In this document: positions 31,554 through 45,974 of the stretch, one piece after another
How the letters are laid out: every line of letters starts with the position of its first letter
Numbering within the stretch: the first letter of the stretch is position 1
Assembly (NCBI RefSeq): GCF_000422425.1
Contig: NZ_AULT01000035.1
Span: 1 to 64,000 of the forward strand
Length of the DNA stretch: 64,000 bases
From: Oceanospirillum beijerinckii DSM 7166
GTDB lineage: Bacteria; Pseudomonadota; Gammaproteobacteria; Pseudomonadales; Halomonadaceae
Reading direction: 5' to 3'
The notes under the pieces: model-generated
Seen by the model: the letters and a program-made list of their open reading frames with translations, nothing else
The model's database searches: none
What the model was told of the DNA's origin: nothing
Made by a program: the position numbers and the translations under genes

Positions 31554-34286
31554 ATGAGTTTTAATCTGGGCGTTAAGGGACAAAGAAGGAAAGTGATTGT
31601 ACATAGGACAGTCTGTCAGCTGGCTGCTTTGATGGCTATGCTGTTATGTCTCAGTGCCAGTGCATTGGCCAAATCCCCAGCGGTTGAGCTGACCGCAGCA
31701 GAAAAGCAGTGGTTGCAAAACCATCAAAGCACCATACGCCTGGGTGTCAGTTATGTGCCGCCCCATACCATGATCAAAGATGAAGCTGGTCGCTACCGTG
31801 GTGTGGCCATGGATTTTCTTTATCTGATCGAAAAGAAGCTGAATATCACTTTTGAGCCGAAGTTTTTCCCCTCTTACAGTGCTATGTTGCAGGCCGCGCG
31901 TGATAAAGAGGTTGATATCGTATTTGCTGCGTCTGAAACCCCGGAGCGTCTGAAATACCTGGATTTCACCCAACCCTATACTTTTTTGTCTAACAAAATT
32001 TTTGTTCGTAAGACCTCCCCGGAATACCAGGGTCTGGATCAGTTAGCGGGTAAAAGCGTTGCTGTAATTCGCGGTACTGCTGTTGCCGAGTATTTGAAAG
32101 CTCAATTTCCGGCGATCAATCTGGTGGAGTTGAAAAGCTCTCGTGATGTAATTGTAGCGCTGTCATCAGGCAATGCGGATGCGGCAATCTCTGTGGTTGC
32201 CAGTGCCTGGATGCATATCAAAAGTGAAGGTATCAGCAATGTTGAGGTTGTGGGTGATGCCCACTATAGCTATGCGGTACGTTTTGCCAGTCGTAATGAT
32301 TGGCCCGTGCTGAATCAAATATTAGAAAAAGCGCTGTACAGCTTTAGTGATAAAGAGAAGGATGATATTCATCGACTCTGGCTCTATCCGGAAAAAGATG
32401 AGGGGATTGATCCTGAGCTGGTCACTCGCTATGCCATTATAATCGCACTTGTTTTCCTGATTGGTCTGCTGCTATCGGCAGCATACTGGATTCGGCGTTT
32501 ACGTCTTGAGGTTGATAGCCGCTTGCGTTCGGAGGCTGCCCTTAAGGCCAGTGAAGAGCGTTTTGAGCTTGCAATTCGTGGTACGAACGATGGTATCTGG
32601 GATTGGGATCTGTGCAGTAATCAGCTCTATCTGGCTCCGCGGGTGCAGGAGATCCTGTCAGCCCCGGGAAACAGTGAACAGGGGCTGGTACAAAACGGTC
32701 TTGAACCCTGGCTGAATAAAGTGCATCCAATGGATATCAGTCTGGTGCAAAGTGGTGTTGATCAGCACCTGCAGCAAAAGGTGCCTCTGGACGTAGAATA
32801 CCGTATGAAAAACAGCCGGAATGAATGGGTTTGGCTGCGTATGCGGGGACAAGCACAATGGGGCAGTAATGATAGCCCGGTGCGCCTATGTGGCTCTATT
32901 ATGGATATCACTCGTACTAAACGGGCGGATGAAGAGGTCAGACGTCTGGCTTATTTCGATAATCTTACCGGTATTCCAAACCGTGAGCGCTTTAAGATTA
33001 CCCTGCAAGGTGCAGTCAATAAGCTGAATACAACAGGCCAGGGTTTTGCCGTTCTGTTTATCGACCTGGATCACTTTAAGGTGATTAATGATAGCCTGGG
33101 TCATCGCATTGGTGACTTGTTGCTTAATCATGTGGCGCAGCAATTGCGCGATCTATTGCCTCCGTCCAACTTTATTGGTCGTCTGGGTGGCGACGAATTT
33201 GCCATTCTGATGGAGGGTACCATCGAAGGGGCTCAGGTTGAGCGCTGGGCCGATGAGATTCTTCTTATGGTGGCACGGCCACTGAAGTTAGATGGTCACG
33301 ATATCAGAACGACTGCCAGTATCGGTATCAGTTTGTGCCAACAGGCTCCAATACATTTGGATACGGTGATGGAACAGGCAGATATCGCTCTGTTTGAAGT
33401 CAAACGCCAGCAGCGAGGCCAATACCGCTTCCATAGCCCAGAGATGAGTCAGAAGATGATAGAGGCCACAGCGCTGGCCAATGATCTGGAACAGGCTCAG
33501 GACAGAGGCGAATTATTTCTGGTTTTCCAACCTCAGGTACACCTGAAGGAGGAAAGGCTTATTGGCTGTGAAGCCCTGTTACGTTGGAAGCACCCCGAGC
33601 GTGGGTTTATCTCTCCTGGGCAGTTTATTCCTCTGGCCGAAGAGCGCGGCCTGATTCATCAGCTGGGTGACTGGGTATTGTATCAAGCCTGTACTCAGGC
33701 CAAGCGTTGGTTGGAACAGGGGGTTGCGTTCCAGCAGATCGGTATCAACGTATCATCACTGCAGTTGCTGGAGCCTCAGTTTGTTGAGCGGGTCTATCAG
33801 GTGCTGCAGGAACTGGAGCTACCGGCTCACTGTATCGAGCTGGAGATTACTGAAACGGTGTTGATGAAGGATATCTCCGTGGCAGAGCAGGCGATGCGTA
33901 GCCTGAACAAACTGGGTGTTAACTTCTCCATTGATGATTTTGGAACTGGCTATTCTTCGTTGCGTTATCTTCATAAATTACCGATTAAGCGTCTCAAGCT
34001 GGCGCAGGAGTTTGTTCGTGATATGGCACCGGATGATGAAGGTGCAGTGATTGCCGCAACATTGCAGCTGGGACGCAACCTGAATATTCCTGTTATAGCC
34101 GAAGGCATTGAAACCTTCCGTCACTTTGAACAGCTACGGGAGCAGGGTTGTGATCAGGGCCAGGGGTATCTGTTTGCAAGGCCTATGGCCAGATCTGAGT
34201 TTGAAGACTTTGTTGCCAAGAGTCAGCAAGTCGGCGTGTTGCCTGAATTTTCTGATTGCAAAGAGCAGATTATGGAGGTGGGTTAA
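31554..34286 (+). CDS. Receptor-type GGDEF/EAL protein with periplasmic substrate-binding domain
   Basis: 910 residues. A signal sequence or first helix ends near ASALAKS, followed by a periplasmic SBP_bac_3-type solute-binding domain (about 45-275), a membrane helix (about 291-312), a PAS domain with PAC-like end (about 325-455), then GGDEF (RLGGDEFAIL near 543) and EAL (CEALLRWKHP near 672). GGDEF looks intact. In EAL, the usual KID segment reads KLA (LKLAQEF, residue 817 Ala for Asp), losing a metal-binding residue, so phosphodiesterase activity is doubtful. The solute-binding part suggests control by an amino acid or similar ligand. Confidence 0.88.
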   Translation: MSFNLGVKGQRRKVIVHRTVCQLAALMAMLLCLSASALAKSPAVELTAAEKQWLQNHQSTIRLGVSYVPPHTMIKDEAGRYRGVAMDFLYLIEKKLNITFEPKFFPSYSAMLQAARDKEVDIVFAASETPERLKYLDFTQPYTFLSNKIFVRKTSPEYQGLDQLAGKSVAVIRGTAVAEYLKAQFPAINLVELKSSRDVIVALSSGNADAAISVVASAWMHIKSEGISNVEVVGDAHYSYAVRFASRNDWPVLNQILEKALYSFSDKEKDDIHRLWLYPEKDEGIDPELVTRYAIIIALVFLIGLLLSAAYWIRRLRLEVDSRLRSEAALKASEERFELAIRGTNDGIWDWDLCSNQLYLAPRVQEILSAPGNSEQGLVQNGLEPWLNKVHPMDISLVQSGVDQHLQQKVPLDVEYRMKNSRNEWVWLRMRGQAQWGSNDSPVRLCGSIMDITRTKRADEEVRRLAYFDNLTGIPNRERFKITLQGAVNKLNTTGQGFAVLFIDLDHFKVINDSLGHRIGDLLLNHVAQQLRDLLPPSNFIGRLGGDEFAILMEGTIEGAQVERWADEILLMVARPLKLDGHDIRTTASIGISLCQQAPIHLDTVMEQADIALFEVKRQQRGQYRFHSPEMSQKMIEATALANDLEQAQDRGELFLVFQPQVHLKEERLIGCEALLRWKHPERGFISPGQFIPLAEERGLIHQLGDWVLYQACTQAKRWLEQGVAFQQIGINVSSLQLLEPQFVERVYQVLQELELPAHCIELEITETVLMKDISVAEQAMRSLNKLGVNFSIDDFGTGYSSLRYLHKLPIKRLKLAQEFVRDMAPDDEGAVIAATLQLGRNLNIPVIAEGIETFRHFEQLREQGCDQGQGYLFARPMARSEFEDFVAKSQQVGVLPEFSDCKEQIMEVG

Positions 34287-36034: not shown

Positions 36035-36109
36035 ATGGCCAGGGACGCAGTTTTTATTCATTGGATGAATGACCGTAGATCGGAATTGGATAATGAAACT
36101 GCAACATAA
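36035..36109 (+). CDS. Possible 24-codon leader ORF
   Basis: ATG at 36035 with a GGAAGGA ribosome binding site nine bases upstream opens a 24-codon frame (MARDAVFIHWMNDRR to ETAT) that ends at 36109, past the likely start of the following GGDEF/EAL gene in another frame. The strong site before a short ORF suggests translational coupling or a leader peptide. It may be non-functional. Confidence 0.3.
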   Translation: MARDAVFIHWMNDRRSELDNETAT

Positions 36110-39100
36110 ACTCTATTTGGGCTTGGCAGCGATTTTTACCATCTTGATGGTGATCGGTGGTCTGCTGTTTTCTCAGGAGTACCAGAAACGTCGTTATACA
36201 GAACAATTGGTCAATCTGTATCAGCCTGCCTTATCCGCCTCAGAAGGCATGATCAGCGCGTTTTCTGAACTGAATAGTGCTGTGGTTAAAAGCCTTAGTC
36301 CTGTAGTGGATTCTCCTCAAGGGAGTCTATTAGCAGCGATTGAGTTGTTTAATAAAAACCAGAATGAACTGGCTTTGCTATCCGGTCATCTTGAACTATC
36401 AGGTCTGCCCAGCGAGCAGCTGGAGCAACAGTTTGATGAGACATCTGTACTGGCATTAGTTTTGGTCAATCAGTATCAGGAGATGTTGAAGCAGCAGCGG
36501 CAGCTGGAAGGCAATGTTGATATCCTGCTCTCATTACTGAAATCACCGGACCAAAGTCATCAGCCAGAACTGTTACTGCTACAAAATGACCTGTTGCGGT
36601 TAAGTCTCTATATTGCGTCTCCCCTGCATCGTAATGCCTGGTATAACAAGGATGAACTGGAGCTACTGGAGCAAAATCTGGCTCAGCGAGTCGAGAGTAT
36701 AAGGGCCCGTGATGAGCTGGCATTTACACTGAATTATTCCGAAATGGGGTATGGTGTGGGAGAGGTGCGTACTCTCTATCATCACATGCTGGCGAACTTC
36801 GACCGCTTTCATATTAAGCTCAGCCAGTATCAGCAGGCGCAGCAGGATCTTCAGCTGTTGCTGAATCAGCTCCATAAGCAGTTGGTGAAAAAACATGAAC
36901 TGTCTATGACACACGTACAGGCGGTAAGCCGTAATAATAAACGTATCGAGTATGTGTTGATCCCGCTGGGGATTATTATTGCGGGACTGCTGGCCTTTCA
37001 AACAGCCCTTCAGGTACGCAAACCGCTGAACCATCTATTGGAAGCGATTCGTTTTGCCCAAGCAGGGGATTTCTCTTACCGCATTGATATCGAGTCTCAT
37101 GACGAAGTGGCGCAATTGGCGGGGCATTTCAATGAGATGATGGACAGGCTAGGTTCGATTACCGTTTCCCGAGCTTATCTGCAGGAGGTGCTGGATACCG
37201 TTCTCCATGGTGTTATTGTGACCGATCATCGGTTTAATATCCGTTTTATCAACGCTGCGGCTGAATACTTCTTCCCTGAACAAGCTTATGTGGAGGGTTC
37301 GATTTTTAATTGTCGGACCGAAGATGGTGCTATGTTGCTAACAGCATCGGAGCGCCAGGTTCTAAACCAGCAGAAGCGCTTAACCAGTATCGAAAAAGTG
37401 GTGGTTCTGCCCTCAGGCCATCAGGTGATACTGACTCTTTCAGTGACTGAGTTGGTGATTAATGAGGCCAGTCATTGGGTAATCTCACTGCATGATATCT
37501 CACAGATCAAAGAAGCTGAGAAAAACCTTCAGCTGTATGCCAAGGTGTTTGAAACTTCCAATGATGCCATTGTTATCTCAAGCAAGCACAATGTGATTGA
37601 ACAGGTGAATCCGGCATTTAGCCGTATTACCGGTTTTGAGCCTGAAGAGGTGGTCGGGCAAAACCCCAGTGTACTCAGTTCAGGTAAACAAGATCGAGGG
37701 TTTTATCGTGAGATGTGGACACAGCTATTGATGAAAGGCTGTTGGCAGGGAGAGATCTGGAATCGGCGTAAAAACGGCGAGGTTTACGCCGAGTGGTTGT
37801 CCATTGTGACTATTCATAATGAACTGGGCTTGATTGAGCGCTTTGTCGGTGTGTTCAGTGATATAACCCAACGTAAAGAAGCAGAGCAGCTGATTCATCG
37901 TCAGGCCAATTATGATGCCCTGACCGAGCTGCCCAATCGTCGCCTGTTCTGGGATCGCCTGTCCCAGGCGTTGCTGCAAGCGCAAGCCAACGAGAGTCAA
38001 TCCAGTGAGGCTCAGGTGGCACTACTTTATGTGGATCTGGATGGTTTTAAGCCGGTGAACGATTCCTTTGGTCATGAGTACGGTGACCTGCTATTAAAAC
38101 AGGTTGCCGTGATTATGAAGTCGCTGATTCGTATTACCGATACCGTGGCGCGTTTGGGCGGTGATGAATTTGCGCTGATTCTACCGGGTTATAGTCAGGC
38201 TCAGTTACAAGAGGTCGCTCAGTCTATTGTGGATCAGTTGATGCAGCCGATCATGGTGAAGGATAAGTTGATCTATATCGGCGCCAGTGTGGGTATCAGT
38301 ATCTATCCTGAGTTGGCCAATAATCAGGAGACTCTGGTGCATCAGGCAGACTCGGCCATGTACTATGTGAAAAACCAAAGTAAGAGCAGTTTTGCTCTTT
38401 ATAACAGCGAGATGGAGGTTGTCGCTTACGAGAAAATTCAGCTGGAGCAGGATCTGAGAGATGCGCTCAATAAAGACCAGATGCAGGTGATTTTTCAGCC
38501 GCTATATGATGCTCAAAGCGAGCGTATTGTTAGCGCAGAAGCTCTGCTGCGTTGGCAGCATCCGGTACGAGGTAAGTTGATGCCTGATCTGTTTATTCCG
38601 CTGGCGGAGGAGACGGGAATTATTCATAGCCTGGGTGAATGGGCTATACGGGAGGCCTGTCAGCAGGCCGTACAGGCGCTAGGTGGTATCGGTTATGTGC
38701 GTGTGGCGGTGAATATCTCACCGAAACAGTTTGCCCAAGCGGACTTTGTCTCTCAGGTGGAAAATATTCTACTTGAAACCGGTTTCCCGGCGAAGTATCT
38801 GGAGTTGGAAGTGACCGAGCGCCTGATTATTAATGATCTCAATGCGACGGCCAGTGTGCTGAAACAGTTATCAGAGATTGGTGTTTCTGTGATTGTGGAT
38901 GATTTTGGTATCGGTTATGCCTCGCTCAATGATTTGCGCCAATATCCGGTGACTGAGCTGAAATTTGATCGTAGCTTTATTAAGGATGTTTGCCGCAGTC
39001 CTCAGGATAGCGGCATGATTCGATCTATGGCGGACTTGGCTCACCAGATGGGGATGAAGGTTGTGGCCGAAGGAGTGGAAGACGCAGATAGCCTGGAAAT

Positions 39101-39209
39101 GTTAAAGCAGATGGGGTGTGATTTTATTCAGGGTTTTGTCTATCACGAGCCCATGGCGATGAATAAGCTGGCACAGCTATTGGAGAATCAGGCCGAGGTC
39201 GGTCAGTGA
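36093..39209 (+). CDS. Membrane HAMP-PAS-GGDEF-EAL cyclic-di-GMP protein
   Basis: About 1038 residues. First membrane helix about 8-30 (LYLGLAAIFTILMVIGGLLF), a roughly 260-residue helical periplasmic sensor, a second helix near 290-308, HAMP, two PAS-type segments (the second near 480-600 with a PAC end), GGDEF (RLGGDEFALIL, about 688) and EAL (AEALLRWQHP, about 814). EAL catalytic motifs NISPKQF, EVTERL, DDFGIGY, KFDRSF, AEGVE and IQGF all look intact, and GGDEF is canonical, so both activities are possible. Start 36093 is preferred because the membrane helix then sits at the N-terminus; ATG 36069 is the alternative. Confidence 0.87.
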   Translation: MKLQHKLYLGLAAIFTILMVIGGLLFSQEYQKRRYTEQLVNLYQPALSASEGMISAFSELNSAVVKSLSPVVDSPQGSLLAAIELFNKNQNELALLSGHLELSGLPSEQLEQQFDETSVLALVLVNQYQEMLKQQRQLEGNVDILLSLLKSPDQSHQPELLLLQNDLLRLSLYIASPLHRNAWYNKDELELLEQNLAQRVESIRARDELAFTLNYSEMGYGVGEVRTLYHHMLANFDRFHIKLSQYQQAQQDLQLLLNQLHKQLVKKHELSMTHVQAVSRNNKRIEYVLIPLGIIIAGLLAFQTALQVRKPLNHLLEAIRFAQAGDFSYRIDIESHDEVAQLAGHFNEMMDRLGSITVSRAYLQEVLDTVLHGVIVTDHRFNIRFINAAAEYFFPEQAYVEGSIFNCRTEDGAMLLTASERQVLNQQKRLTSIEKVVVLPSGHQVILTLSVTELVINEASHWVISLHDISQIKEAEKNLQLYAKVFETSNDAIVISSKHNVIEQVNPAFSRITGFEPEEVVGQNPSVLSSGKQDRGFYREMWTQLLMKGCWQGEIWNRRKNGEVYAEWLSIVTIHNELGLIERFVGVFSDITQRKEAEQLIHRQANYDALTELPNRRLFWDRLSQALLQAQANESQSSEAQVALLYVDLDGFKPVNDSFGHEYGDLLLKQVAVIMKSLIRITDTVARLGGDEFALILPGYSQAQLQEVAQSIVDQLMQPIMVKDKLIYIGASVGISIYPELANNQETLVHQADSAMYYVKNQSKSSFALYNSEMEVVAYEKIQLEQDLRDALNKDQMQVIFQPLYDAQSERIVSAEALLRWQHPVRGKLMPDLFIPLAEETGIIHSLGEWAIREACQQAVQALGGIGYVRVAVNISPKQFAQADFVSQVENILLETGFPAKYLELEVTERLIINDLNATASVLKQLSEIGVSVIVDDFGIGYASLNDLRQYPVTELKFDRSFIKDVCRSPQDSGMIRSMADLAHQMGMKVVAEGVEDADSLEMLKQMGCDFIQGFVYHEPMAMNKLAQLLENQAEVGQ

Positions 39210-39353: not shown

Positions 39354-40088
39354 TTAGGCGATACCTGTACCCACTTCCAGCTCGTCCAGCCAATCCAGGA
39401 AACGCACGACATCACGGTCTCTGAAAATAGCTCCGTGCTGCGGTGCCATATATTTAATATCCAACTGGCGTACGCGACGAATCCAATCCTTCTTGGCTCG
39501 GTTAGAGGGCATCCAGCGTTGGTGGAACAGGCGCATTTTGTCAACGTGAGCATCAAAATCTTCTACGAACAGCGGCGCGCCGTCAGGTAGCAGTGCGGCG
39601 CCAATATCGCCGCTCATCAGAATCTTAGCCTGAGGATCATAAACACTGAAGTTACCGGAGGAGTGCATATAGTGCGCCGGGATAAATTGCAGCTCTACCT
39701 CATCCAAGCGAATGCTTTTACCTTCGTCGGGCAGAGGGTTGTACTTAATACTGTTACAGCCGAAGTGGCGCAGGAAGCCTTCCCATAACCAGGGGGCGTG
39801 CAGCTCTGCATGAGGCAAAGTTTTATCCCACAGGCCCAGGGAGGAGATAATATCTGGGTCCTGGTGGGAAGCAAACAGGTGCGTGATCTGTTGCACTGGC
39901 ACATGGTGTACCACAGCAGCCAGCATAGCAGAAAACAGCTCAATACCACCGGGGTCCAGCATGATAGCGTGGTTGGTGGTTTTGATCATATATTGGTTCG
40001 TATCAATAATCTTACTTGGGCGCTCTTCATCCCGGCCAAAGACCAGCCACTCGTGGCTGCGGCTTTCATGCAGTTTGACTACTTTCAT
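39354..40088 (-). CDS. ODP-type diiron metallo-beta-lactamase-fold protein
   Basis: A 244-residue soluble protein. Metal-site residues of the flavodiiron-like branch are visible: HQDPD (H75, D77, D79), H139 and H142 in PAHYMHSSGN, D161 in SGDIG and H218 in PQHG. It lacks the flavodoxin domain of FprA-type oxidoreductases, which makes it an oxygen-binding-diiron (ODP) single-domain form. From memory, such a protein acts as an oxygen/iron sensor for chemotaxis in Treponema denticola. Here it lies 38 bases after a soluble chemoreceptor-like gene on the same strand, close to a membrane chemoreceptor; an aerotaxis-related role is inferred. Confidence 0.78.
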   Translation of the reverse strand: MKVVKLHESRSHEWLVFGRDEERPSKIIDTNQYMIKTTNHAIMLDPGGIELFSAMLAAVVHHVPVQQITHLFASHQDPDIISSLGLWDKTLPHAELHAPWLWEGFLRHFGCNSIKYNPLPDEGKSIRLDEVELQFIPAHYMHSSGNFSVYDPQAKILMSGDIGAALLPDGAPLFVEDFDAHVDKMRLFHQRWMPSNRAKKDWIRRVRQLDIKYMAPQHGAIFRDRDVVRFLDWLDELEVGTGIA

Positions 40089-40126
40089 CGACTTCTTTCC
40101 GTATTCCTGATGATCTGTGCTGAGAA

Positions 40127-40780
40127 TTAGCGCTCAAGTGAATGTCGGCATTTACTGGCGATATGCTTAATGCGGTTAGCTGCTTTTTCCAGTTTTACCA
40201 CGATGCCTTCCAAGCTAGCCTGGTAGCTGTCTGCTGCTGTGGCGGCTTCCAGTCGGGAGGTTGCTGTGACTACATTGGCGGCCAGCATGCGGGACTCAAT
40301 TTCATCAAGCAGTTCAAACAATTTTCGCATATGACGTCGTAGTTGCATGGTTTGCTGATGGTGTCGGTTGGATGCTTCCTGTGCAATGGAATCCAGAGTA
40401 TCGCCAAATGCGGCTGTTTTTGAGCGCTCCTGCGCTTTTTTGAAGCGCTCATGGGCATCCGCGCTATGTAGGTCTGCCAATGAGTTTCGGGAGAGAGTCA
40501 AGGCCTCCCGGTTGATCTCTTTTACCAGCCAGATGGTGTCATTGGCCAGCTCAACCATAAAGTCCGTAATAGGTTTAAAGGTTCGGACATTGTCACCGGC
40601 ACGGGCGACCAGAGCCTTGGCATTCATCGCTTCCAAAGAGATGTTTTTTGCTTCAGTGAGCACTACGCTTAATTCAGCAGCCACAGTGGCAGCATTAATA
40701 AAAAAGTGTGCGCTGTTTCTTGGGCCTGACTGCATTCCGGGCAACCCTTTTATCGAACCAGTGAAATGGATTTCTTTCAA
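40127..40780 (-). CDS. Soluble helical protein resembling a chemoreceptor signalling tip
   Basis: A 217-residue, all-helical, membrane-free protein. Residues 52-63 (MNAKALVARAGD) align without gaps with the conserved chemoreceptor hairpin [12 protein letters not shown], and ELANDT follows where receptors have a (K/M)LA..T segment. Other tip residues, including the central Glu of the IEAAR motif, are changed, so contact with CheA/CheW may be altered. It is the upstream gene of a likely two-gene operon with the ODP-type gene and is divergent from the membrane chemoreceptor at 41166. Function unknown; a sensor adaptor for the diiron protein is the simplest guess. Confidence 0.6.
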   Translation of the reverse strand: MKEIHFTGSIKGLPGMQSGPRNSAHFFINAATVAAELSVVLTEAKNISLEAMNAKALVARAGDNVRTFKPITDFMVELANDTIWLVKEINREALTLSRNSLADLHSADAHERFKKAQERSKTAAFGDTLDSIAQEASNRHHQQTMQLRRHMRKLFELLDEIESRMLAANVVTATSRLEAATAADSYQASLEGIVVKLEKAANRIKHIASKCRHSLER

Positions 40781-41165
40781 TTATGGTGAGCTGTGTGCGG
40801 GTTGACAACTATTTGCACTGATTAATTCGCTGCTTGAGTGCTGAAAAGATCGAATATGGGAGAAGCTGTGTAAAAACCAGTGGCACTGGAATGAGTGACT
40901 TAATTGCTTCGTTGATCAATCTTGATTAGCGGGATTGAGCCTGATTCCATTGTTTTTGAGTGGTTTAGCGCATTATCTTGCTGAAGTTGTAAAAAAAAGC
41001 AGTGAAAAATGCGTAAATGCCGGTTTTTATTGTGCGACGAAAGTATTATTCTGATAAAAAGGCCTGCCTCCTAGGGATCACAGGCGGCAGAAAATAATAA
41101 CAAACCGCTTTAGGATGATTATGATTTCATCGTAAAGCCAACGGCCAAAAGCTGTTGAGGTCACA
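40781..41165. other. Divergent intergenic region of the chemoreceptor cluster
   Basis: 385 bases with no gene. It must carry promoters for the receptor on plus and the soluble receptor-like/ODP pair on minus. I did not find a convincing sigma-28 match, although TAAAT..GCGACGAA-like sequence near 41013-41040 is faintly similar. Confidence 0.35.
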
Positions 41166-43106
41166 ATGTCAAATCAACTATTTGCTCTGGGCAGTAAGCT
41201 GTTACGGCCCGTGATTATCACGATTGTTATCCTGGCAGTCGTGCAGACTCTGCTCTTTATTACGCTGACCCGTTCCGGAGGGGAAAGCCTGATTAATGAT
41301 ATCAGTGCCAAACTCAGTCTGGAGAACGGTAAGGTTTCTGAGCAGCTGGCAATGTCCAGTGAGCGGGTGCAGGGACAGATTGCCGAGATGTCCGATAAGG
41401 TATCCGTTGAACTGTCCGGTAGCCTGAAGCTGGAGCTGGAGCAGGAGAAAGATAGCACAGTTAAGATGCTGGAAGATTCCCTGCTGGATACTTCCAAGAA
41501 TATGGCGGTTATTCTCGCCGCAGTAGCCCCCCAGGCGATCTGGGATCGTGACATTCCTCAGCTGACTCGCTATGTACAGATGGCTCATGAAAGTGAGCAT
41601 GTGGTGTTTGCCGGTTACTATGATATCTACGGTAAACGTATGACCCGCTATCTGAATAGACGCAGTGATCTGGTGAAAGATCTGATTGAAGAATCTAAAG
41701 GGAGTGGTAAAAAAGGCCTTGATGGAGTGATTGCTGCTGCCGCTGATCATGAGCGTATCATTATTATCCGTCAGCCTATCAGCCCCAGTGGCTCTCCTAT
41801 CGGGGAGTTTGTCTTAGGGGTGAGTCGTGACAAGGTGATCTCTGGCACTCAGGAGATGGAAGTTGGCTTTAATGCATTAATTAATAACAGTATTGAGGCA
41901 GTGAAGAACAGTATCAATACTGCTTCCGGTGAGACAGTATCTGATTTGAAGGATCGCCTTTCGGGGATTCAGCAGAATAACGATACGGCCCGTCACTCCG
42001 TGGAGCTACGTATCGAAGAATCGTCTGATCAACTGGTTCAACAGATGACCTTGGTGTCTCTGATCAGTGCTCTGGTATTGATTGTAGTACTGGTGGTGGT
42101 GCTATCGGTACGTATCTTACGTCGTATCGGGATATTGACCGATGCACTGAGTGATCTGTCTGAAGGGGAAGGAGATCTGACGCGTCGTATCGGCATTAAG
42201 GGGGATGATGAAATCGCATTGATGGCCGGTAAGGTAAACCACTTTGTCCAAGCCATTCAGGCGATTGTGGGTGATGTGCAGTCAGTGTCCAGACATACCT
42301 CCAGCGTAGTGAATACTATGCGTCAGGGAAATATTCAGGCGTCACAAGCAACTGAACGACAACAAAGTGCCGTTTCAGAAGCCTCTGCTGCAGTGGCTTA
42401 TATTGTGGACAGTGTGGCAGAAGAGAGTGAAAGCGTGGCTCAGACACTGAAAAGTGTCGATAAGATCCGTGAGGAGACCGGACAAAGCGCGGCTATCTCT
42501 CGGGAAGTTCGCCATGATATTGAGCATCTGGTAACCAATGTGGAAGCCACTTCTGATGTGATTGATGCGCTGGCATCGCAAAGTGATCAGATTGGTGATG
42601 TACTGGATATGATCAAGGCGATTGCCGAGCAGACTAATCTCTTAGCACTGAATGCGGCTATTGAAGCAGCCCGTGCCGGTGAGAGTGGGCGTGGCTTTGC
42701 GGTTGTGGCCGATGAAGTACGTATGTTGGCCAGTAAAACCCAGCAATCGACGGAAGATATTGAGGCCCAAATCGGGCAGCTACAGGCCGGTGCCACTAAA
42801 GCCGTTACGGCGATTAATGAAGCAAGTACAGTAGCGCGTAGTAGCATTGATGGCATTCGCCAGTCTGATGAACGTTTAGCAAGTGTCAATAACGCGGTCG
42901 AAGAGCTGCATAAGATGTTCACTGAGATCACCCGTATGACGGAAGATCAGGCCGGACAGGCGGGCAGTATGCATCAGGCACTGGAGCAGATTTTTAATGA
43001 ATCCCATGTCACTGCGGGTGCTGTGGCTCAGGCCGATAGCACCAGCCTGGAGCTGGAGCAGTTGGTGCAGGATCTGGGACAGAAGGTGGGGCGCTTTAAG
43101 GTTTAA
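41166..43106 (+). CDS. Methyl-accepting chemotaxis protein
   Basis: A 646-residue membrane receptor. Membrane helices at about 14-36 and 296-318 bracket a periplasmic sensor; a HAMP domain follows, then the signalling domain with the full hairpin tip [17 protein letters not shown] and [15 protein letters not shown] near 485-512. The sensor has a coiled-coil-like N-terminal part and a compact segment with [13 protein letters not shown]. The ligand is unknown. Convergent to pseI with a strong bidirectional terminator between. Confidence 0.93.
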
Positions 43107-43254: not shown

Positions 43255-44304
43255 TTAAAAATTAACTTGTTCCAGTTTTACCGGAGTATTGGCTGCAATA
43301 TCCGTATTGACCGTTTTACCGATCAGTTGATCCAGATATTTAGGGGCGGCACCATAACCGGGACGTACACTACGAATATGGGCCTGGGTAATGGTCTCTC
43401 CTGCATTCAGTGCTTTTACAAAATACAACGAACGGCGGAACTGGACATTACCGCTTTCACTGGATTTTTTACCATAGTCTACCTGTCCACGCGCCTGCCA
43501 GGCGGTCTTGCTGTCCCGACATAAAGCGATCAGATCTTCAGGTTCCAATGAGAAACTGTCATCTGGGCCGCCACCGTTACGATCCAGAGTAAAGTGTTTT
43601 TCGATAATAGAGGCACCCAGCATCACACTGGCAATCGCGGTGGTATTATCCAGTGTATGATCTGACAAACCCGTCACTAAACCAAAGCGCTCTATCATAT
43701 CGGCAATAGTCGCTAGATTATAGTCGGCAGCCGGGGCCGGATAGCCACTGACGCAGTGCAGAATTGCCAGCTCTTTACAGCCGCCGTCCTGTGCGGCGGC
43801 AATCGCTTCAGCAATCTCATCAGCGTCCGCCATACCGGTTGAAATAATCATCGGTTTGCCGGTACTGGCGACATAACGAATAAGTGGCAGGTCGACGGCT
43901 TCAAAACTGGCAATCTTGTACGCAGGTGCATTCAGGTCTTCCAGTAGATCCACCGCGGTTGAATCAAAGGGGGAACTGAACATGGTGATGCCCAGTTGAC
44001 GGGCGTAGTCAAACAGAGGCTTATGCCAATCCCATGGTGTATGAGCTTCTTCATACAGCTCGTATAGACTTCTGCCATCCCATAAACCGCCCTGAATAGT
44101 GAATTCGGGGGCATCACAGTCAAGCGTGATGGTATCTGCGGTATAGGTTTGCAGTTTAATGGCATCTGCACCGGCTTTATGAGCTTGTTCAATAATCTTA
44201 AAAGCGGTATCAATGGAGCCGTTATGATTGGCAGACAGCTCAGCGATAATATAAGGCGCATCCTGCTGGCTGATGCGGCGCCCGGCGATTGTGATCTCTT
44301 TCAT
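43255..44304 (-). CDS. pseI: Pseudaminic acid synthase
   Basis: A 349-residue NeuB-family enzyme condensing 2,4-diacetamido-2,4,6-trideoxy-L-altrose with phosphoenolpyruvate to give pseudaminic acid. IIAELSANHNGS, ADAIKLQTYTADTIT and GLSDHT match PseI rather than sialic acid synthases, and a C-terminal SAF/antifreeze-like domain is present. It is the last gene of pseG-pseH-pseI, 6 bases after pseH. Confidence 0.93.
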   Translation of the reverse strand: MKEITIAGRRISQQDAPYIIAELSANHNGSIDTAFKIIEQAHKAGADAIKLQTYTADTITLDCDAPEFTIQGGLWDGRSLYELYEEAHTPWDWHKPLFDYARQLGITMFSSPFDSTAVDLLEDLNAPAYKIASFEAVDLPLIRYVASTGKPMIISTGMADADEIAEAIAAAQDGGCKELAILHCVSGYPAPAADYNLATIADMIERFGLVTGLSDHTLDNTTAIASVMLGASIIEKHFTLDRNGGGPDDSFSLEPEDLIALCRDSKTAWQARGQVDYGKKSSESGNVQFRRSLYFVKALNAGETITQAHIRSVRPGYGAAPKYLDQLIGKTVNTDIAANTPVKLEQVNF

Positions 44305-44310
44305 ACTTGG

Positions 44311-44850
44311 TTATCTCTTGGCTATCTGGGCCATCTCTTGGCTGTGGGTGTGCCACTCCTGCGCTAATAACCCGAAGCAGGCGATTGAGTGGAAATTCAG
44401 GCCATCATAATACTGATCTCTCAGCGTCCCTTCCTGCTGAAAACCCATCTTTAAGTGGAATCGGATTGATTTGTCATTATACCCAATGGCCTGACCGCAC
44501 ACTTTATGTAACCTGAGTTCGCAGAAAGCATAGTTCAGGGCGTGAAAGCCTAACTGACTGCCCGTACCTTTGGCGGCATCCGGTGCAAGATAAAATCCCC
44601 AGTCGGCAATCTGTTGGTGAGACTGCAGGGTAAAATGAATAAAGCCTGCCGGTAGACCCTGGTGCTCAAAGACCAGCAGTTGGCGTAAGGGATCGGGTTG
44701 GCAGCGTTCGAACCAATGGGCGTGTTCCTGCAGAGTTATCTCATGTTGAGTGTACATAAAACGGCGTACCTCAGGATGATTACGCCAATGTAACACAGTG
44801 GTCAAATCGTCTGCTGTCATAGGGCGGACAAAACTGGCAGAGGTGTTCAT
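44311..44850 (-). CDS. pseH: UDP-4-amino-sugar N-acetyltransferase PseH
   Basis: A 179-residue GNAT acetyltransferase. TAMTADDLTTVLHWRNHPEVRRFMYTQ-type N-terminus (seen as LHWRNHPEVRRFMYTQHEI) and the KGTGSQL acetyl-CoA loop are typical of PseH. It acetylates the 4-amino group of the altrosamine intermediate. It overlaps pseG by four bases and is followed by pseI. Confidence 0.88.
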   Translation of the reverse strand: MNTSASFVRPMTADDLTTVLHWRNHPEVRRFMYTQHEITLQEHAHWFERCQPDPLRQLLVFEHQGLPAGFIHFTLQSHQQIADWGFYLAPDAAKGTGSQLGFHALNYAFCELRLHKVCGQAIGYNDKSIRFHLKMGFQQEGTLRDQYYDGLNFHSIACFGLLAQEWHTHSQEMAQIAKR

Positions 44851-45974
44851 TGTGACTCCTGCTCCAGATAATTAACGACTTTCAAGCACCCCAGACCATC
44901 GCTGATCGCCTGAGCGGCCTGACTACTGTTGCTGAGATAGTTGGGGCTTAGCTGATCAAAACATTGAGCGACCTGTTGTGCAAGCTTAGGACCGATACTG
45001 AGTGATTGTGCTGCACCGGCGGCTTGCAGTTGTTTGGCAATTGTTTGCTGGTTTTCTGCCAATATGATCATCAGTGTGGGTAAACCCAGACAACATCTCT
45101 CCCAGCTGGTACTGCCTGCCGCGCCAATGGCAAAATCGGCGTTGGCCATCAACTCTGCCATATTATTGACGCCCTGGAGTACCTGGCAGGGTTGTTTGAG
45201 CTCAGCGGCGATCTGTTTGACCTGCTCAATATGAGGAGCGGTGACACCCATCACAACGGTTAATTCGCAGGATTCAGGCAGGTGGCTGTGATCAATGGCT
45301 TTGAGTAGAGTACCGGTGATATTGTCTTTATCCACCCCGCCCAGATTAATCAGTAGATTGTTTAACTCAGGAGACTGGCGACGTTTAAGGCTGGTAGTAC
45401 GCCACTCGCTAAATTCAGGCCGTAACAGCGCGTATTGAGCGCCGGTCAAAATCTGGCATCCAGCGGGAACCAGAGATTGATAGTTGTCTGCTGTGCGACC
45501 AAAGGTTTGATCCAGTAATAGATTACACCGATGTTTTCGGTCTGCCAGATCATCAATTACCATTAATTGCTTAAAACCTGCCTCGCAGGCATCCTGCCAG
45601 TGATAGTCCAGGGCATAGTGATCTACAATCAGCCAATCGACAGCCTGTCCTGAGGTGAAAAGTATTGAAAGTGTCTGAAGTGTTTGTTCGGCGTCCTGCT
45701 GCCAGGTGGCCCCTAGCCAATGGGCGTGAGGTGGCAGGTCTGAGCCAGAACTATCGGTTATTGGATCAACCTGATCGGATGCCCTAGGGGCTGAAAGAAA
45801 TTCAACATGGTAGCCTTTCTGGTGAATAAAATCCCCTAGGTGTCCCTTATGTGGTCGGCAGATAAAGCGGCATTGATGTCCCCGTTCGGTCAATGCATCT
45901 GCCAGCGTCAGGCAGCGCATAATATGGCCGCTGCCAATATTGATTGAAGCATCAGCACGAAAAACGATGTTCAT
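44847..45974 (-). CDS. pseG: UDP-diacetamido-altropyranose hydrolase PseG
   Basis: A 375-residue GT-B-fold hydrolase that removes UDP from the diacetamido sugar. The N-terminal RADASINIGSGHIMRCLTLA motif and LLINLGGVD are typical of PseG. It is the first gene of the minus-strand pseG-pseH-pseI set and overlaps pseH by ATGA-type coupling. An internal stretch around residues 65-80 looks like a lineage-specific insertion. Confidence 0.9.
   Translation of the reverse strand: MNIVFRADASINIGSGHIMRCLTLADALTERGHQCRFICRPHKGHLGDFIHQKGYHVEFLSAPRASDQVDPITDSSGSDLPPHAHWLGATWQQDAEQTLQTLSILFTSGQAVDWLIVDHYALDYHWQDACEAGFKQLMVIDDLADRKHRCNLLLDQTFGRTADNYQSLVPAGCQILTGAQYALLRPEFSEWRTTSLKRRQSPELNNLLINLGGVDKDNITGTLLKAIDHSHLPESCELTVVMGVTAPHIEQVKQIAAELKQPCQVLQGVNNMAELMANADFAIGAAGSTSWERCCLGLPTLMIILAENQQTIAKQLQAAGAAQSLSIGPKLAQQVAQCFDQLSPNYLSNSSQAAQAISDGLGCLKVVNYLEQESQ

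Follow-up and report, generated by a model that had tools for sequence, protein, structure and literature searches.

A tandem-tip receptor-like protein paired with an ODP-family diiron protein in Oceanospirillum: a candidate oxygen-input module for chemotaxis

What might a short, soluble helical protein that resembles the tip of a chemoreceptor do beside a diiron protein of the ODP family? The question is raised by a locus of Oceanospirillum beijerinckii DSM 7166 (class Gammaproteobacteria, 5.3 Mb assembly), lying within a stretch of 64,000 nucleotides that we refer to as the window. A preliminary description, made from the letters of the window, had proposed a module for aerotaxis or oxygen sensing in which the helical protein carries one degenerate receptor tip. 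The reading that we prefer, and to which we assign a probability of roughly 0.6, is that the pair is a two-gene oxygen-input module for chemotaxis, with a single chain made up of tips alone standing in for the receptor dimer and an oxygen-binding ODP acting on CheA. The features on which the following analysis is based are

39354..40088, minus strand: ODP-family single-domain diiron metallo-beta-lactamase-fold protein, 244 aa, the proposed oxygen (and iron) sensor (PF19583, 1.5e-74)
40127..40735, minus strand: tandem-tip receptor-like protein, 202 aa from ATG 40735 (217 aa if from TTG 40780), AF2 pLDDT 89.3
40538..40657, minus strand: tip 1, residues 27-66 of 202, TEAKNISLEAMNAKALVARAGDNVRTFKPITDFMVELAND
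40190..40294, minus strand: tip 2, residues 148-182 of 202, SRMLAANVVTATSRLEAATAADSYQASLEGIVVKL
40780..40808, minus strand: promoter-like site for the two-gene unit, TTGTCA, 17, CATAAT, weak
41166..43106, plus strand: divergent full membrane chemoreceptor (HAMP + MCPsignal; MCPsignal 3.5e-37)

The two-gene unit and its ODP protein

The helical gene lies upstream and its open reading frame is separated from that of the ODP protein by 38 bases (40089-40126). With a convergent neighbour downstream (36069-39209) and a divergent one upstream, the two genes form a unit of their own. Promoter-like sites of the type found at 40780..40808 are no more numerous than in shuffled sequence, so that this site must be considered weak, and in a pattern search of the window and its shuffles no oxygen-regulator site stood out upstream of the pair; a single FNR/Anr-type match there, with 2 mismatches at 40767, was set aside since nothing singles it out. 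Over the whole window the pattern TTGATNNNNATCAA has 57 matches with at most two mismatches, compared with 39.9 in shuffles and a maximum of 55 in 100 shuffles. Beside the module are encoded two large GGDEF-EAL proteins (31554-34286 and 36069-39209), one with a solute-binding domain and the other with HAMP and PAS domains, while three genes at 43255-45974 resemble, on reading of their translations, those for pseudaminic acid synthesis (PseI, PseH, PseG).

The helical protein was initially described as a 217-residue open reading frame (40127-40780) beginning with TTG. The frame is as described, but translation probably starts at ATG 40735 to give 202 residues, since an ATG is found at the equivalent position in 5 of 5 same-genus relatives, since in one relative (L014) the frame is interrupted by a TAG 8 codons ahead of the ATG, and since the promoter-like -10 site on the minus strand ends at 40780. 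The nearest named match is O. sediminis, with a helical protein of 91% identity.

The assignment of the second protein is straightforward. It had been read as a single-domain flavodiiron-type MBL protein with HxDxD, later His sites, SGD and PQHG, and both the motifs (HQDPD, HYMHSSGN, SGD and PQHG in the 244-aa frame) and an HMM search agree, the latter placing it in family PF19583 (1.5e-74) with 250.5 bits against a cut-off of 27.2. ODP/Lactamase_B is the only domain above its Pfam cut-off, with no flavodoxin among them. The solved ODPs 6qrq and 6qnm are matched by phmmer at 2.5e-60 and 7.2e-58, respectively, with the metal-site motifs HQDPD, HxxHSxG, SGD and PQHG aligned, and all four motifs, written as HxDPD, HxxH(S/A)x(G/A), SGD and PQHG, are retained in each of 39 close paired ODPs described below. 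By sequence, then, the protein is filed as an ODP, and it is likely an oxygen-binding iron protein; ODP reportedly binds oxygen reversibly at its diiron site.

Other contexts for ODP genes were encountered as well. Two further ODP genes, with 41 and 43% identity, lie in tandem on another contig of the same genome (C40) and are followed on the same strand by a gene for an HD-domain protein (L120 5684-8635; HD_5, 5.3e-23), possibly forming an oxygen-linked cyclic-di-GMP branch. ODP-GGDEF fusions occur in three gammaproteobacterial genomes (L150 1682-3760, L151 910-2715, L152 180-1979), and in one case an ODP gene is found directly behind that of an MCPsignal + CZB protein (L156 626-2758), from which it seems that ordinary ODP-receptor pairing also occurs in Gammaproteobacteria.

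The divergent membrane receptor that had been pointed out next to the pair is real, as its MCPsignal match indicates, but it looks like a genus-level feature and not a part of the module. It stands beside the pair in this genome and in 5 of 5 same-genus genomes of the relatives sample, and beside none of the 6 other carriers in that sample within the 1.5 kb fetched. With no case outside Oceanospirillum, it was dropped as a module component.

Receptor-tip-like stretches of the helical protein

As claimed at the outset, the helical protein is membrane-free, soluble as judged from its translation and from Pfam, and residues 52-63 of the 217-residue form, MNAKALVARAGD, align gaplessly with the chemoreceptor hairpin. 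Its match to MCPsignal (PF00015) amounts to 15.1-15.6 bits (E 0.022), below the cut-off of 34.6, and the corresponding protein of L130 (21.3 bits) likewise falls under this value. A match to AAA (E 0.0037) outranks that to MCPsignal in the window protein; AAA, MltF, WXG100, PTPA and proteasome-type matches are, however, scattered and below cut-offs where these are given, with AAA common to just 3 of 16 members, and were rejected. MCPsignal is matched at E <=0.1 by 10 of these 16, the best at 1.3e-5. Single-sequence searches are too weak to decide on receptor homology and we have therefore relied on family profiles; the window protein misses the MCPsignal cut-off, but the profiles reveal distant homology with receptor tips.

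In order to treat the two halves of the protein separately, one profile was made from the N-terminal half (A3, 35 members) and another from the C-terminal half alone (A4); three MCPs of this genome that the family profile had caught (L006, L008, L010) were excluded from the A2 alignment. The genome has 77 MCPsignal places, a large receptor set, and register and scores were measured on the 30 best-scoring of these 77 receptors. The N-half profile matches soluble receptors of the PDB at 9.5e-9 and E. coli Tsr (1qu7) at 2.5e-4, aligns with the tip of the neighbouring receptor at 93.8% in hhalign, and scores a mean of 28.9 bits on the 30 receptors. For the C-half profile the mean is 13.6 bits and the lowest score 9.5. 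Controls consisted of reversed profiles together with 19 column-shuffled and 20 heptad-preserving shuffled ones, whose highest means are 4.6 (N) and 1.9 bits (C); their highest single scores, 14.3 (N) and 12.9 (C), overlap the weak C-half scores, so that individual values from 9.5 upward are not separable on their own. For each half profile the tip glutamate of all 30 receptors falls at one model position, and E163 (of 202) is in register with it in 30 of 30.

When the whole genome was searched with the C-half profile at E <=10, 79 of 80 non-self matches fell on MCPsignal places (two being second matches), all 77 places were matched, the best at 9.2e-6, and the sole match elsewhere had an E value of 8. 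With hhalign the C-half is in register with the tip of the neighbouring receptor (57.5%, E 1e-4), the two halves align with each other in register (E 1.4e-4, probability 52%), and in a distant member, L034, the second half reads TNSRTEAARAGEF and resembles a receptor tip. None of 35 single C-halves matches MCPsignal at E <=0.01, and in the PDB a designed coiled coil is the best match of the C-half with receptors behind. Judged from these profiles the helical protein is a homologue of chemoreceptor hairpin tips and carries two receptor-tip-like stretches. The tip homology proposed earlier is thus borne out; the count of one degenerate tip is not, since a second receptor-tip-like stretch is present in the C-terminal half.

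The two stretches differ in what they retain. In Tsr numbering, for which we take the receptor E of EAARAGE to be 385, residues N381, R388, G390 and F396 are each found in 100% of the 30 receptors. Tip 1 keeps them at 100, 86, 100 and 91%, respectively, over 35 sequences and has lost E385 from every one (0/35; I, L, V, M or T instead), whereas tip 2 keeps E385 at 89% and N381, R388 and G390 at 26, 29 and 31%. The division of receptor-invariant residues between the tips is not clean, because T375, L380, G393 and E402 are retained in neither. Mean conservation is highest over tip 1 (65%), followed by tip 2 (53%), the helix after tip 1 (51%) and the far-end loop (31%), and tip 1 is strongly conserved between Oceanospirillum and Terasakiella.

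Two AlphaFold2 models (pLDDT 87.8 and 89.3, pTM 0.79 and 0.82) are all-helical, with helices spanning residues of about 5-107, 111-166 and 169-201 and a break at tip 2. By DSSP the first helix is unbroken from residue 5/6 to 104/107 in both models, with no break at tip 1, so that a turn there is not visible. In Foldseek searches designed proteins of ~195 residues, which we take to be single-chain four-helix bundles, give TM scores (query length) of 0.62 and 0.59, values that would not fit a straight 100-residue helix; other matches to those designs score 0.34-0.4. No Foldseek match reaches E <=0.001, and the lists include a six-helix barrel and BAR domains as well, with receptor entries at rank 10-11 or lower. 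The predictions moderately support a four-helix bundle, and the protein likely folds in this way with both tips at one end.

No sensor domain or HAMP was found in Pfam scans of the window protein and 16 members, and a chain of 202 residues, its tips lying 40 residues from the N-terminal end, would leave no room for methylation helices. Given the curated cut-off and the lack of most defining parts the protein is not to be filed as an MCP, although a Pseudoalteromonas member is annotated 'chemotaxis protein' in RefSeq; on the evidence it would work like the tip of one.

Recurrence of the pair and its link to chemotaxis genes

A survey of gene neighbourhoods establishes that the pairing is conserved, with an ODP gene directly behind the helical gene on the same strand in 39 of 39 close family members, either overlapping or at a spacing of <=90 bases (larger overlaps in L043 and L123 are an effect of long ORF starts). 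These 39, each counted once, comprise the window locus, 11 from relatives, 4 alphaproteobacterial, 19 from a class sample and 4 from a phylum sample. Nine loci stem from named genomes, namely the four alphaproteobacterial ones and five from Oceanospirillum; the latter were equated in species with the five same-genus genomes and do not add to the count. The initial proposal would have been in difficulty had neither an MCPsignal or distant-homology match nor conserved co-occurrence of the genes emerged, and what we find is both distant homology and co-occurrence.

The helical protein was detected in 12 of 58 relatives' genomes at 1e-8 and in 20 of 369 class-sample genomes at 1e-10, own genome included in each case. 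In the phylum sample 8 of 398 genomes gave a match: our own, four with close members, one with a member of subfamily B, and two with full receptors without an ODP nearby (L127, L128), which were removed from the family. Subfamily B (L092, L094, L095, L107, L112, L117, L126) consists of divergent tandem-tip-like proteins of 171-226 aa directly before ODP genes, and in part of them (L095, for example) the C-half is weak. Since the search led to six of the seven via the ODP, their pairing is not independent evidence, and subfamily B is kept outside the 39. On a replicon of Pseudoalteromonas xiamenensis the pair appears as a 'chemotaxis protein' and an overlapping 'MBL fold metallo-hydrolase'. All 20 class-sample carriers fall within the 78 ODP genomes of the 369 (p 4e-15), as expected once the genes are adjacent. 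In a tree of ODP sequences the 39 paired ones cluster together (100/99), and with the seven of subfamily B they make up a larger group (100/99) that is apart from 19 other rows, ODPs of loci with no tandem-tip match alongside; four rows of the tree are on long branches. The pair is spread over many families of Gammaproteobacteria and some Alphaproteobacteria, and the nesting of the alphaproteobacterial copies among gammaproteobacterial ones suggests that they were acquired by transfer.

All 20 class-sample carriers have a CheA match (PF02895), as compared with 236 genomes in the full set of 369. If only strong matches are counted (1e-18 or better), 19 of the 20 carriers remain, with frames of 642-857 aa, against 23 of the 58 ODP genomes that lack a close member (p 8e-6); the threshold was set after seeing the data and the counts were taken by hand. 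In G178, the carrier that diverges most, the one CheA match falls in a frame of 1351 aa.

Four genomes have the pair inside a che cluster: the gammaproteobacterial genome G305, Terasakiella brassicae, T. pusilla and the Methylocystaceae MAG HF-Din02. In G305 the order on one strand is CheW, PAS receptor, CheW, STAS, CheR, CheD, CheB, receptor, STAS, a sub-threshold HATPase-like protein and the pair, and a CheA match lies ~1 kb before the fetched stretch. In the other three, CheR-CheD-CheB genes, whose identity was checked with Pfam in T. brassicae, precede the pair by ~3 kb on the same strand, and a single gene of opposite orientation intervenes. Behind the ODP gene of T. brassicae there is a gene for a receiver-domain protein, and a similar frame is seen by reading in T. 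pusilla and HF-Din02. The fourth alphaproteobacterial locus, L030, has no che gene over a sequence that ends 1.7 kb upstream of the pair. In Terasakiella (L028 8995-11751) the pair is near cytochrome oxidase assembly genes (COX15/CtaA, COX1-like).

We have also considered 19 flanks of up to ~9 kb per side, some shortened by contig ends. The pair is seen in each, none of CheA, CheW, CheR, CheD and CheB is found in 17 of them, and queries for che genes and receptors together give no match in 16; of the rest, one has the che cluster of G305, one has CheA/CheW ~12-13 kb off and one a receptor ~1 kb upstream. From these flank and cluster counts che linkage is the exception in Gammaproteobacteria, yet it is seen in two classes.

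A possible mechanism, rival readings and known systems

The notion of an aerotaxis or oxygen-sensing module is therefore supported in part, by ODP membership, tip homology, tight pairing, placement in che clusters of four genomes and CheA in 20 of 20 carriers, and the single degenerate tip has to be given up. As the pair recurs in many bacteria, sometimes within chemotaxis clusters, an oxygen input to swimming is its probable role. In the fold that we envisage, one polypeptide would bring its two tips to the same end and so resemble a receptor dimer tip, and the chain would join receptor arrays at their base, mixed with other receptors. On oxygen binding at the diiron site, ODP bound to the chain would alter the chain, or CheA directly, and the shift in CheA output would cause the cell to swim up or down an oxygen gradient. 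The two places that a dimer offers within a trimer are unequal, and the tips, unequal themselves, may be divided between them, with one lying at the axis and the other facing CheA/CheW. A more specific form, in which the protein is an asymmetric, ODP-gated single-chain receptor dimer with tips specialised for these places, and in which the complementary loss of N381/R388/G390 and of E385 is the trace of a division of labour, is put forward tentatively, the odds being against it.

Three other readings must be weighed against an oxygen input to CheA. The tandem-tip protein might be an array modulator or decoy that caps, breaks or loosens trimers or competes for CheW/CheA, with ODP releasing or stabilising it according to oxygen. 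Such a role would accommodate the degeneracy of both tips, which share out receptor-invariant residues or have lost them altogether, the fact that neither a methylation nor a sensor part was detected, and the altered ordering of CheA in arrays of T. denticola when ODP is deleted (PMC7666581); the conservation of tip 1 from Oceanospirillum to Terasakiella looks, however, like binding that has been kept and not like decay. Our data do not separate activation from inhibition, and we regard this reading as unlikely.

More doubtful still is that the pair controls a target other than flagellar CheA, be it a Pil-Chp-type kinase, a partner-switch (STAS/SpoIIE/HATPase) branch or cyclic-di-GMP, with the receptor fold used as a scaffold. 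In its favour, three other ODPs of this class come as GGDEF fusions and the tandem ODP genes of this genome precede an HD-domain protein; STAS, SpoIIE or HATPase-like genes are near the pair in G305 or Terasakiella (the HATPase of G305 being below cut-off), and the CheA match of G178 is in the 1351-aa frame noted above. Yet the excess of strong CheA among carriers, even if it depends on a post hoc threshold, and the CheR, CheD and CheB genes beside the pair in the linked cases argue for CheA. To the same low level of likelihood we relegate the proposal that the second tip owes its likeness to being a coiled coil, in which case there would be one receptor hairpin on which an unrelated helical pair packs and holds ODP. 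Such a view draws on the failure of all single C-halves to match MCPsignal, on PDB matches mixed with designed coils and on a probability of just 52% between the halves, but it is hard to square with the specificity of the C-half profile, which finds 77 of 77 MCP places and one chance match elsewhere, with the unanimous register at the tip glutamate, and with shuffled profiles that average near zero.

Returning to the preferred reading of an oxygen input to CheA, how does the pair compare with known systems? Tm14, the soluble receptor of Thermotoga maritima to which PDB entries 3g67/3g6b presumably correspond, reportedly partners an ODP. At 213 aa it is similar in length, it is soluble, and it is among the best PDB relatives of both halves; its tip, however, is mid-chain (the N-half profile matches 83-149 of 213), whereas the tandem-tip protein has tips near residues 46 and 165. 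In the ODP-GGDEF fusions and the ODP with a CZB-type soluble receptor, ODP likewise serves as a sensor module and it is the output partner that differs.

The T. denticola system is likewise among the closest. Its ODP (TDE2498) is coupled to a cytoplasmic receptor (TDE2496), an MCP homolog that lacks membrane and sensor parts; this receptor modulates CheA and is likely to enter the membrane arrays, and loss of the ODP changes CheA order (PMC7666581). According to a review, ODP interacts with its cognate receptors (PMC6978683). The likeness extends to an ODP coupled to a membrane-free, sensor-free receptor-like protein with a link to CheA; the Oceanospirillum partner differs in having 202 aa, two short tips and a score under the MCPsignal cut-off. 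Single-chain chemoreceptors offer a further point of comparison. As described in PMC4692393, engineered single-chain dimers (Tsr~Tsr) signal, a receptor dimer has one subunit at the trimer axis and another that can meet CheA/CheW, and natural soluble single-chain MCP domains occur in Rhodospirillum centenum and a handful of others. Compared by these descriptions, the tandem-tip protein would likewise hold two receptor signalling parts in one chain; those proteins are described as built from MCP signalling domains, whereas the tandem-tip protein has diverged tips only and an ODP gene.

In the open-access literature, with most subscription papers outside it and the negative correspondingly weak, we found no partner reduced to two unequal receptor tips per chain; ODP coupled to ordinary soluble receptors is known from Treponema, and it is the two-tip partner that appears to be new. 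If correct, the preferred reading would provide a minimal oxygen-gated chemoreceptor in many gammaproteobacterial families and some Alphaproteobacteria. It would also offer nature's own means of addressing the problem that Mowery et al. approached with engineered receptors, the role of each unequally placed dimer subunit in the trimer. The pair would fit between the ODP-coupled receptors and the single-chain receptors, combining the ODP input of the former with a tip-only, two-in-one output.
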